From Thermoleophilia bacterium (lineage in GTDB: Bacteria; Actinomycetota; Thermoleophilia; Gaiellales; Gaiellaceae), in NCBI GenBank assembly GCA_016844515.1, contig JAERMP010000137.1, forward strand, positions 1 through 14,096: DNA of 14,096 nucleotides, in the 5' to 3' direction. The position numbers and the translations under genes are program-made. The notes under the pieces are model-generated. The model ran no database searches and was not told the origin of the DNA. It saw only the letters and a program-made list of their open reading frames with translations. Shown in pieces: positions 11,230 to 14,096 of this stretch (position 1 is the stretch's first letter; each line of letters opens with the position of its first letter).

Positions 11230-11259
11230 GACCAGAATCCGCGCTAGCGGATTCTGGTC
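11230..11259. terminator. Strong bidirectional hairpin between convergent genes
   Basis: A perfect 13-bp stem, GACCAGAATCCGC (11230-11242) with GCGGATTCTGGTC (11247-11259), and a GCTA loop. It lies 8 bases before the stop codon of the opposing YtxH-like gene and 60 bases after the M23 stop, as expected for a terminator shared by convergent genes. No T-run follows on either strand, which is common in high-GC actinobacteria. Confidence 0.7.
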
Positions 11260-12010: not shown

Positions 12011-12805
12011 GTGGTTCCGAAGGGTCTCATCTGTGCCGGCGGCGAGGCGACGCGCCTCGGCGAGCTGACGCGTGTGGCGAACAAGCACCTGCTTCCGGTC
12101 GGGAGCTGGCCGATGATCTACTACCCGCTTCAGCTCTTGCAGCTCGCTGGGATACGTGACGTCCTCCTCGTGACGGGGAAGGGTCATGCAGGCCAGATGA
12201 TCGACCTCCTAGGCGACGGCCGGCTCGCGCCACGTGGCGGCGGTGACCCGATCCTCGAGCTCGATCTCACGTACAAGGTGCAGACCGAACCGGGCGGAAT
12301 TGCCCAGGTGGTCGGCATGGCGAGAGACTTCGCAGCCGGTGCACCGCTCGTGGTTGTGCTCGGTGACAACATCTTCGAGTTCGCGCAGTCCGAAGCGCTG
12401 CACGACTGGGCCGAGAGGCCGAACCGTGCCCGGATCTTCGTCAAGGAAGTCGACGATCCCGAGAACTTCGGCGTCGTCGTCTACGACGAGCAAGGCGCCG
12501 TCGCGGACCTCGTCGAGAAGGCCGGTGTGGTCGACACACGGTTCGACGAGCCCCCTTCAGCACATGCCGTCGTCGGCCTCTATTGCTACCCGCCGGACGT
12601 CTTCGACGTCATCGAGAAGCTGGCACCTTCGATCCGAGGCGAGCTCGAGATCACCGACGTGAATCGTCACTACGCGCTGGCCGGCAGACTGGACGCCTCC
12701 GAGGTCGCGGGCTGGTGGGAGGACGCCGGAAAGCACTGGAAGCACCTCGCGGACATCGGGCGCCGGATCGACGAGACCGGCGCGAACAAACGAGATTCGG
12801 CGTGA
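12011..12805 (+). CDS. rmlA: Sugar-1-phosphate nucleotidyltransferase (RmlA-like, probable glucose-1-phosphate thymidylyltransferase)
   Basis: A 264-residue enzyme that would join a sugar 1-phosphate to dTTP, forming dTDP-glucose in the first step of dTDP-rhamnose synthesis. The Rossmann N-terminus is GLICAGGEATRL (5-16), followed by NKHLLPVGSWPMIYYPL (24-40) with the conserved Lys25, YKVQTEPGGIAQVV (88-101), VVVLGDNIF (114-122) with metal-binding Asp119, DDPENFGVVVYD (148-159) and ELEITDVN (211-218). The first motif has Ala where most RmlA enzymes have Gly (GGxGTRL), and the late motif reads WEDAGKHWKHL where WxDTGT is usual, so it is a divergent short form. The start is GTG at 12011. Its stop overlaps the epimerase GTG. 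Order with rmlC- and rmlD-like genes supports the pathway; sugar specificity is inferred. Confidence 0.87.
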   Translation: MVPKGLICAGGEATRLGELTRVANKHLLPVGSWPMIYYPLQLLQLAGIRDVLLVTGKGHAGQMIDLLGDGRLAPRGGGDPILELDLTYKVQTEPGGIAQVVGMARDFAAGAPLVVVLGDNIFEFAQSEALHDWAERPNRARIFVKEVDDPENFGVVVYDEQGAVADLVEKAGVVDTRFDEPPSAHAVVGLYCYPPDVFDVIEKLAPSIRGELEITDVNRHYALAGRLDASEVAGWWEDAGKHWKHLADIGRRIDETGANKRDSA

Positions 12806-13269
12806 TCGACGGACTGACGCGGATCCCACTGCATGTGCACGAGGACGACCGCGGCTGGTTTCTGGAGCTCCGGCGCGACAGCGGACTTCCGACGCGAATG
12901 GCACAGACCAACGTTTCGTTCTCCCGCGCCGGAGTCGTCCGCGGACTCCACTACCACGAACGCGGCCAGGACGACCTCTTCGCGTGCCTGCGCGGCACGG
13001 CACGCGTCGTCGTGCTCGATCGCGCGACGGGAGAGACGTTCACCGAGGACATCGGCGAGGAGAACCCCGTAGCCGTCTACATTCCCGGCCATCACGCCCA
13101 CGGGTTCGAGGCACTGACGGACATCATCTTCTGCTACCACGTCACGGTCGAGTACGACCCCGAAGACCCCGACGAGCACACGGTTCCCTGGAACGACCCG
13201 CGCGTCGCGCACCTATGGAGCTCGAGCAGCCCGATCCTGTCCGCGCGGGACGCCGCCGTCGAATCCTGA
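12802..13269 (+). CDS. rmlC: dTDP-4-dehydrorhamnose 3,5-epimerase-like protein (RmlC)
   Basis: A 155-residue cupin-type epimerase acting on dTDP-4-keto-6-deoxyglucose. It has FLELRR near the start, QTNVSFSRAGVVRGLHYHERGQDD (35-58) with the catalytic-type His50, a beta strand GTARVVVLDRATGETF (65-80), VYIPGHHAHGFEAL (92-105) and the family ending YHVTVEYDPEDPDEHTVPWNDP (112-133) followed by HLW. His replaces the Gln of the usual RGLHYQ. It is shorter than typical RmlC (about 180 residues), mainly at the C-terminus, so a related sugar epimerase is possible. GTG at 12802 overlaps the stop of the nucleotidyltransferase gene (GTGA). The reductase gene begins inside its 3' end. Confidence 0.87.
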   Translation: MIDGLTRIPLHVHEDDRGWFLELRRDSGLPTRMAQTNVSFSRAGVVRGLHYHERGQDDLFACLRGTARVVVLDRATGETFTEDIGEENPVAVYIPGHHAHGFEALTDIIFCYHVTVEYDPEDPDEHTVPWNDPRVAHLWSSSSPILSARDAAVES

Positions 13270-14075
13270 TCACGGGAGCGGGCGGCCAGCTCGGCCGTGC
13301 GCTTCAGCAGGAGTTCGCGGACGCCGACGTCGTCGCTCTGACCCACGCCGAGTGGGACGTTGCCAACCCGCCAAGTAACAGTCTGTTACAAGGTGGTGTC
13401 GATCTCGTCCTGCACGCGGCGGCCTGGACGGACGTCGACGGAGCAGAGGCGGACCCACAAGCCGCTGCAGCCGTGAACATCGCCGGCACGGCGAACGTGG
13501 CTTCGCTCGGCGCTCCCCTCGTCGCGTTCTCCACCGACTACGTGTTCGACGGCCTGAAGCGGGAGCCATATGTCGAGTCCGACGGTGTCAACCCGCTTTC
13601 GGCCTACGGGCGGACGAAGCTCCACGGTGAGGCCGCTGCAGGCTCGGACGCGTGGATCGTCCGAACCTCCTGGCTCTTCGGTCCGACTGGCCACAATTTC
13701 GTTAGGACCATGCTCCGGCTGGGGGCCGAACTCGACGAGGTCGCGGTTGTCGACGACCAACGGGGCTGTCCCACCTACGTCGGCCACCTGGCGCAGGCGG
13801 TGCGCGAGCTCGTCGACACCGATCGGCCACGCGGCGTCTGGCACGTCGCAGCGCAGGGGGACTGCACATGGGCCGACTTCGCCGAAGCGGTCTTCGCCGA
13901 GGCCGGCCTCGACTGCAGGGTGCGACGGGTCTCGACCGAGGAGCTCGGCCGCCCCGCGCCCCGGCCTGCATATGCGGTCTTACGGAGCGAGCGAGCGGGA
14001 GCGCCGACGCTCCCGCACTGGCGTGAGGGATTACACGCGTGCATGGCTGCTCTCGGCACGACGGAGGCCAAGTAA
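13215..14075 (+). CDS. rmlD: dTDP-4-dehydrorhamnose reductase (RmlD)
   Basis: A 286-residue short-chain-type reductase that makes dTDP-L-rhamnose with NAD(P)H. It has the nucleotide-binding loop ILITGAGGQLGRAL (17-30), HAAAWTDVDGAE (67-78), AFSTDYVFDG (104-113), the catalytic YGRTK (Tyr131, Lys135), RTSWLFGPTGHNFV (150-163) and VVDDQRGCPTYVGHLA (178-193). The ATG at 13215 is chosen because it keeps the full first beta strand (RRRILITG); it overlaps the rmlC-like gene by 55 bases. A CTG at 13266, overlapping that gene's TGA as CTGA, would start directly at MITGAGGQ. Residues PSNSLLQ (53-59), between WDVANP and GVDLVLH, are encoded by a copy of a palindromic repeat, and a second copy covers the stop codon. 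No rmlB is visible. Confidence 0.93.
   Translation: MELEQPDPVRAGRRRRILITGAGGQLGRALQQEFADADVVALTHAEWDVANPPSNSLLQGGVDLVLHAAAWTDVDGAEADPQAAAAVNIAGTANVASLGAPLVAFSTDYVFDGLKREPYVESDGVNPLSAYGRTKLHGEAAAGSDAWIVRTSWLFGPTGHNFVRTMLRLGAELDEVAVVDDQRGCPTYVGHLAQAVRELVDTDRPRGVWHVAAQGDCTWADFAEAVFAEAGLDCRVRRVSTEELGRPAPRPAYAVLRSERAGAPTLPHWREGLHACMAALGTTEAK
13371..13393. repeat. Palindromic repeat, copy 1, inside rmlD coding sequence
   Basis: Left arm CCAAGTAACAG, centre T, right arm CTGTTACAAGG. Nine of the eleven arm positions pair; the AA near the right end breaks symmetry compared with copy 2. It is in frame and encodes PSNSLLQ plus two bases of the next codon. Twenty of 23 positions match the copy at 14068-14090. 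Its AT content stands out from the GC-rich surroundings. Confidence 0.8.
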
Positions 14076-14090
14076 CAGACTGTTACTTGG
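14068..14090. repeat. Palindromic repeat, copy 2, across the rmlD stop codon
   Basis: Left arm CCAAGTAACAG (14068-14078), centre A, right arm CTGTTACTTGG (14080-14090): a perfect 11-bp inverted repeat around one base. The TAA stop of rmlD (14073-14075) is part of the left arm. It is the near-twin of the copy inside the same gene about 700 bases upstream. A one-base loop makes an RNA hairpin strained, so a protein site or mobile palindrome is as likely as a terminator. Confidence 0.85.
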
Positions 14091-14096
14091 CGGGGG

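Follow-up and report, generated by a model that had tools for sequence, protein, structure and literature searches.

Short dispersed palindromes in genomes of an uncultured Thermoleophilia family, a probable REP-like repeat family

Classic REPs reach hundreds of copies per genome, and REPINs consist of two inverted REP units which form one hairpin and are mobilised by RAYT transposases. REPs of the GTAG and CGTC superfamilies are described as palindromes of 20–40 bp, found as singles and dimers near 3′ ends, in convergent and unidirectional gaps, with termini that supply stop codons, and inside replication and repair genes; at nearly the same position of recB, two Xanthomonas species carry REPs that differ from each other (PMC3733652). 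According to a second report, Rickettsia palindromic elements (RPE) are in-frame repeats inside conserved genes and encode a recurrent peptide (PMC10969869). A third source reports that RPEs lose repeat identity and describes perfect inverted repeats of up to 284 bp inside protein genes of nematomorph mitochondria, which are apparently kept in step over time (PMC6649704).

Here, two copies of a short palindromic element were analyzed in and around a rmlD gene. The window, i.e., the whole stretch of DNA analyzed, comprises 14,096 nucleotides. The features discussed below are (coordinates, strand, description):

12011..12805, plus strand, rmlA-like nucleotidyltransferase gene (context only)
12802..13269, plus strand, rmlC-like gene (dTDP_sugar_isom; Pfam match on 12817–13269), overlapping the start of rmlD (context only)
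13215..14075, plus strand, rmlD, dTDP-4-dehydrorhamnose reductase; ATG at 13215, stop codon at 14073–14075; hosts copy 1 and has its stop inside copy 2
13371..13393, plus strand, palindromic element copy 1, CCAAGTAACAGTCTGTTACAAGG; inside rmlD, in frame as P-S-N-S-L-L-Q, residues 53–59 counted from ATG 13215
14067..14091, plus strand, palindromic element copy 2; arms of 12 bp that pair perfectly, across the rmlD stop (AAG TAA)

The rmlD product was named by Pfam (RmlD_sub_bind, E 4e-81). The rmlC and rmlD frames share about 55 bases (window 13215–13269). An earlier note on this DNA had described two near-identical 23-base copies at 13371..14090, and both could be recovered with mismatches at 3 of the 23 positions. 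The 23-letter form of copy 2, CCAAGTAACAGACTGTTACTTGG, lies at 14068–14090, and a flanking G and C extend its perfect pairing to 14067–14091. A check of gene and frame agreed with the note in that copy 1 is translated in the rmlD frame as PSNSLLQ, and copy 2 was likewise found to lie across the rmlD stop, AAG-TAA being the last codon and the stop codon. Both copies had been called palindromic, which is correct for copy 2. The symmetry of copy 1 is incomplete: its AA..AA feet are unpaired, and pairing is limited to the outer CC/GG and the core of 15 bases. Two exact matches to the core are present in the window. Even with three mismatches allowed, shuffled windows held a mean of 0.10 matches, and at least two matches were found in 1 of 200. 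A search of the phage collection gave no match for window 13200–14096, and a phage origin was rejected on this ground.

The earlier note had proposed a dispersed palindromic unit and had counted a genome with only the two copies against it. In relatives, the unit is not limited to two copies. Of 103 genomes belonging to one Thermoleophilia family, 42 carry the core GTAACAGNCTGTTAC; the richest hold 34, 32 and 26 exact copies, and the reversed core was found in none of the 103. This family is termed Gaiellaceae-like because RmlD homologues (79–94% identity) include proteins labelled Gaiellaceae by their source. In a class-wide draw, the 19-mer was found in 3 of 61 genomes, and all three belong to the core-bearing family. 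A scan of species genomes returned at least 120 matching stretches; among the 80 matches listed, the high-GC ones were mostly from drafts of Thermoleophilia and other Actinobacteria, and the outer bases were missing in many of the low-GC ones. A relaxed pattern gave up to 46 matches per genome (G106), and its reversed control in five genomes gave one match in G106 and none in the other four. A chance origin was rejected, since the reversed patterns had no matches throughout, save this one. The palindrome is also present, at 70% G+C, in an AMP-binding gene of a contig titled Burkholderiales (L017); this contig is possibly wrongly binned.

The copies are numerous per genome, are placed at gene 3′ ends and in frame inside genes, occur in genome dialects and are found at sites common to species. 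We consider it probable, at roughly 0.7, that the element represents a short dispersed palindromic repeat family of an uncultured Thermoleophilia family, REP-like in size and location. The main idea of the earlier note, a REP/MITE-like unit or regulator site that lies in frame in tolerated loops and at gene ends, is supported. The family is filed as REP-like and not as REP, since tests revealed neither a GTAG/CGTC tag nor an association with Y1 transposases.

For the analysis of the unit, 302 distinct sites were obtained from 292 loci (1.41 Mb), most of which had been chosen for carrying the palindrome, so that per-locus rates do not equal genome rates. Duplicate sites and loci under 62% G+C (64% for another locus set) were left out before counting, and genes were called by an own codon-usage script instead of a standard caller. 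The reversed pattern gave no site in the same 292 loci. The profile of the 302 sites is a unit of 23 bp, CC-WW-GTNACAN-N-NTGTNAC-WW-GG, with a free centre and mirrored halves. Outside the unit, base composition is close to background, and 40 of 601 arms have an additional stretch of some 17 bp in common (about GTTCGACACGGCC). The feet were AA..TT in 69 sites, AA..AA or TT..TT in 71, TT..AA in 6 and mixed in 156. In 149 sites of nine genomes, pairing of the A/T foot positions across the dyad was no higher than expected, and pairing at position −9 was below expectation (0.36 vs. 0.47).

Neighbouring sites form 72 pairs with a spacing of 53–118 bp, and none was found at 119–220 bp. When 60 non-redundant pairs were compared with a smoothed null, a weak exploratory period near 10 bp was detected (p 0.0045, many periods having been scanned), which is only suggestive of helical phasing. 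Both units are clearly oriented in 7 of the 72 pairs, with six direct and one inverted. The pair spacers fold no more strongly than shuffles (fold z −0.26 vs. −0.22 in control flanks). Two closely spaced short palindromic units are a recurrent arrangement here as in REPINs, but spacer and orientation make no single long hairpin, and a REPIN hairpin was rejected as the spacers are without unusual folding.

The element shares several features with REPs. A palindrome within the range of 20–40 bp (here 23 bp) is present in many copies (up to 34 exact and 46 relaxed per genome), as singles and dimers, near 3′ ends, in convergent and unidirectional gaps, with stop codons supplied by its termini, with in-gene copies in replication and repair genes and with different palindromes at the same site. 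In contrast to REPs, draft genomes hold tens of copies, the oriented pairs are mostly direct with spacers that fold no more than shuffles, and the feet carry no GTAG/CGTC tag. Within 14 nt of the core, GTAG was found 10 and CGTC 28 times at 603 feet, compared to 9 and 92 times in controls about 100 nt away.

A link to Y1 transposases (RAYT), as known for REPs, was also not identified. Y1_Tnp was detected in 38 of 48 genomes with and 40 of 55 genomes without the palindrome (Fisher p 0.50) and was not found in the copy-rich G106 and G102, where, as throughout, drafts may be incomplete. Furthermore, the palindrome was present in none of the 10 Y1_Tnp loci read, which also separates it from REPINs. 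A Y1 transposase link was rejected on the lack of association across genomes and in these loci, and a common transposase neighbour was rejected because none of the 10 neighbours or hosts that were compared with Pfam is a transposase. The analysis revealed no mobilising enzyme.

Placement at gene ends, as suggested by the earlier note, was confirmed. A gene 3′ end lies inside or within 30 bp of 136 of the 302 sites, compared to 194 of 4,260 random positions, and 71 of the 302 copies supply the stop codon of a gene, as copy 2 does for rmlD. Gaps of at least 23 bp hold a site in 46 of 109 cases if the flanking genes are convergent, in 94 of 423 if they are in tandem and in 21 of 189 if they are divergent. 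The accumulation at 3′ ends and the preference for convergent gaps would be expected if the palindromes were transcription terminators or 3′ RNA hairpins. However, TTTT was found within 20 nt past the core in none of the 71 stop-supplying sites, and stem mismatches show no G-U preference where the sense strand is clear (10 GU, 9 AC or CA and 31 other). In addition, 53 copies lie inside genes and the window is without a match in Rfam at gathering scores. The terminator reading, which we regard as most improbable, was rejected for the lack of T-tracts and of a G-U bias.

The half-sites differ between genomes in the form of dialects (GTAACAG, GTGACAC and GTTACAA). GTGACACNGTGTCAC was found in 8 of the 103 genomes, mostly in G106 (25) and G105 (12). 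Among the listed places of the relaxed pattern, G069 has mainly GTTACAA, and G003, G005, G018, G015 and G017 have GTAACAG forms. Dialects are mixed in G102 (GTTACAA, GTGACAA and GTAACAC), and G106 has two classes, with GTGACAC mostly single and GTNACAA mostly paired. The probability of half-site agreement within a genome was 0.62–1.0 in seven genomes and 0.26–0.43 in G106, G102 and G051, a measure that is partly circular as the loci were fetched by pattern; the whole-genome dialect and core counts are free of this circularity.

The existence of dialects, and the fact that they change in place, would fit a protein-binding site as well. The palindrome might be bound by a dimeric DNA-binding protein of the host, such as a chromosome organiser, an insulator or a roadblock terminator, and be kept by selection while changing genome-wide together with the protein. 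The sharp 23-bp boundary, the bounded pair spacing with its weak exploratory period, and the foot positions that are A/T yet unpaired across the dyad point in the same direction, as does the comparison of five sets of shared gene-end sites. There, cores are 94% identical (311/330) and spacers 68% (523/773), a contrast that is biased because every member was picked for having the core. Against this, few copies are located in the divergent, promoter-bearing gaps and three genomes (G106, G102 and G051) have mixed dialects. Together with the loop comparisons below, this makes a binding site an unlikely account of the family.

The repeat family also extends into coding sequences. In total, 53 in-gene copies were read in frame, of which 39 encode (P)SN[SR]LL[QL] or dialect forms of it and 14 encode VT-x-CY; the rmlD loop itself contributes 6 of the 53. 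The empty third frame is built in, because the main dialects close it by a stop and the gene caller cannot pass stops. The hosts include DnaE, PolA (two loci), a UvrD-type helicase, glycosyltransferases, an AIR-synthase-like protein, an AMP-binding enzyme and biotin carboxylase, with Pfam names obtained for eight hosts. This is consistent with the in-frame landing in tolerated loops that the earlier note had suggested. The likeness to RPE lies in the in-frame position in conserved genes and in the recurrent peptide, here of the PSN[SR]LLQ or VT-x-CY type. The unit is, however, 23 bp and not about 150 bp in length, the organism is unrelated, and, unlike what is reported for RPE, the symmetry is often kept. 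On the sense strand, the feet of the 53 copies were AA..AA in 20, AA..TT in 3, mixed in 30 and TT..TT in none, though TT..TT would also leave open frames.

For the comparison of DnaE, dnaE loci were picked by protein. The DnaE of G106 contains one single unit and one pair. In loop 1, both fragments of G104 carry the same palindrome as G106, G102 carries GTAACACAGTGTTAC, G113 GCTTGCAACAGACTGTTGCAAGC, G051 GTAGGGGCGACATATATGTCGCCCCTAC and G069 a similar GTAGGGGCGAGGCTTGCCTCGCCC. No clear palindrome is present in this loop in G028 and G022, the loop of G028 being equal in length to that of G106, and G103, G105 and G101 are barely or not covered. In loop 2, the whole pair is inserted in G106, G051 and G069 are empty, other palindromes are found in G028, G022, G113 and G103, and remnants in G105 and G101. 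Of the two G104 fragments, one is without a palindrome there and the other, like G102, does not cover the loop. Sister genomes carry different palindromes in the same two DnaE loops, some of them from another family. In the biotin carboxylase of G106, a second copy is present as +9 residues. These inserted blocks and the unrelated palindromes in identical loops argue against a binding site kept by selection.

In a census of palindromes with arms of at least 10 bp, 197 were counted in the same 1.41 Mb, compared to 34 in a Markov control, many of the loci having been chosen for palindromes. Samples of 400 kb each, spaced along the genome with one stretch taken to include dnaE, gave 51 vs. 13 (control) in G113 and 35 vs. 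12 in G028. A second paired palindrome family, GGTGTCSGACTNNAGTCSGACACC, was observed in G113 (L363, L364, L370 and L379), with two units about 38–54 bp apart.

The loop at residues 53–59 of RmlD was compared among 121 proteins including the query. It reads PSNSLLQ in 24 and PSNRLLQ in 10; the others read PSDTVSQ or PSDKVSQ or are without the element. The rmlD loci of 30 relatives, picked by protein and not by palindrome, contain GTGACACCGTGTCAC and GTGACACGGTGTCAC in two genomes and near-palindromes in several more. In the remaining relatives no palindrome was found, and the stretch is 2–5 residues shorter in nearly all of them (L217 has the same length). From this comparison of the loop DNA, the rmlD loop site is common to relatives and its sequence has changed with the arms in step.

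The earlier note had considered residues 53–59 as a possible inserted block, which was not confirmed. There is no net insertion of 7–8 residues, as this stretch is 0–5 residues shorter in element-free RmlDs of the family and has about the same length in RmlDs of known structure. The note had counted homologues with unrelated DNA but the same length and residues against its idea; with these lengths such a finding was made in part, and residues 53–59 are not a simple added block. In the predicted RmlD model (mean pLDDT 83.8), residues 55–58 from the ATG (54–57 of the folded stretch) would form a short helix between two strands.

In a tree built without the loop, the two telling RmlD residues, which are encoded by the two arms, co-change on 10 branches, always in a compensating manner. 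Of the 160 branches, 5 show a lone change at one of these residues and 4 at the other. This is in favour of a binding site, but on well-supported branches only 3–4 independent co-change pairs were counted, too few to reach significance, and the test on 3 pairs cannot reach it. The compensating changes would also be expected if the symmetry were kept only by quasipalindrome correction, i.e., template switching from arm to arm, with neutral changes in place and no need of a protein or of re-insertion. This mechanism is documented in other systems, and the report on nematomorph mitochondria names template switching as possible for their coding palindromes (PMC6649704). These share with the present case the inverted repeats within protein genes and the arms in step; here, in contrast, one short sequence family with genome dialects is found. 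Correction by itself leaves the shared dialect among unrelated sites of one genome unexplained, as well as the conserved CC..GG feet and the A/T positions, and in the GTNACAA class of G106 the arms match at N in only 2 of 14 sites. We consider it very unlikely as the sole cause of the symmetry.

At the rmlD stop, 31 ends (30 relatives and the window) were compared. A palindrome with arms of at least 8 is present only in the window and in L212, L217 has a less perfect palindrome pair at its rmlD end, and L225 has an unrelated palindrome 115 bases further on. The stop-codon site is therefore not generally kept, which is a further point against a binding site. The arrangement mentioned in the earlier note, in which the copies flank most of the catalytic region, has no evident meaning. 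In G051, a perfect palindrome with 26-bp arms was observed near the end of the called rmlD (L211 1456).

Under the preferred reading of a REP-like dispersed family, new copies of the unit, alone or as two units 53–118 bp apart, would be made by a putative palindrome-recognising enzyme, whose target would probably be the hairpin form or a dimer site in the duplex. Copies may survive where they do the least harm, either in the space between the ends of genes, where the stop codon they carry could serve, or in permissive loops in the stop-free frame. Old copies would then persist at orthologous sites, often still symmetric, and the symmetry may be kept because the same factor still uses the copies or via template-switch repair between the arms. 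In the comparison with MITEs (terminal inverted repeats and target-site duplication), no exact DNA-level empty site was found here, and no target duplication was seen, without such an empty site to compare.

Several in-gene copies (RmlD, DnaE loop 1 and biotin carboxylase loop 1) show little or no net length change. This counts against simple insertion, which does not predict it. We tentatively suggest as one possibility that permissive loops of housekeeping proteins are lasting docking places for palindromes. Such a loop could carry different palindromes over time, and the resident could switch to the dialect of the genome in place, both arms together, with the protein remaining functional. 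If true, this would be a self-renewing, protein-coding symmetric element instead of a decaying insertion.

The element looks like a new family of short palindromic repeats of a sort known from other bacteria. Among the papers of the searched open literature that share at least two core-derived strings, as far as their accessible text extends, the 15-base core was not found in print, only two 9-base pieces of it. Nothing joining Gaiella to repetitive extragenic palindromes was found there, and for Thermoleophilia and palindromes the accessible records gave only unrelated titles. With these results, in-frame palindromic repeats, for which Rickettsia is the best-known case, extend to a group of uncultured Actinobacteria, in DnaE, PolA and other core genes. 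Through the dialects and orthologous sites, the spread and persistence of such repeats can be followed, as can the question of whether new protein loops evolve from them. For annotation, a recurrent peptide of the SN[SR]LLQ kind does not necessarily indicate homology in these genomes.

Two further palindromic structures were observed. In the window, a 30-base stem-loop, GACCAGAATCCGCGCTAGCGGATTCTGGTC, with 13-bp arms lies at 11230–11259 between convergent genes. A similar GCAGGAATCCGC..GCGGATTCCTGC was found twice in one G113 stretch (L376 16658 and 16785).
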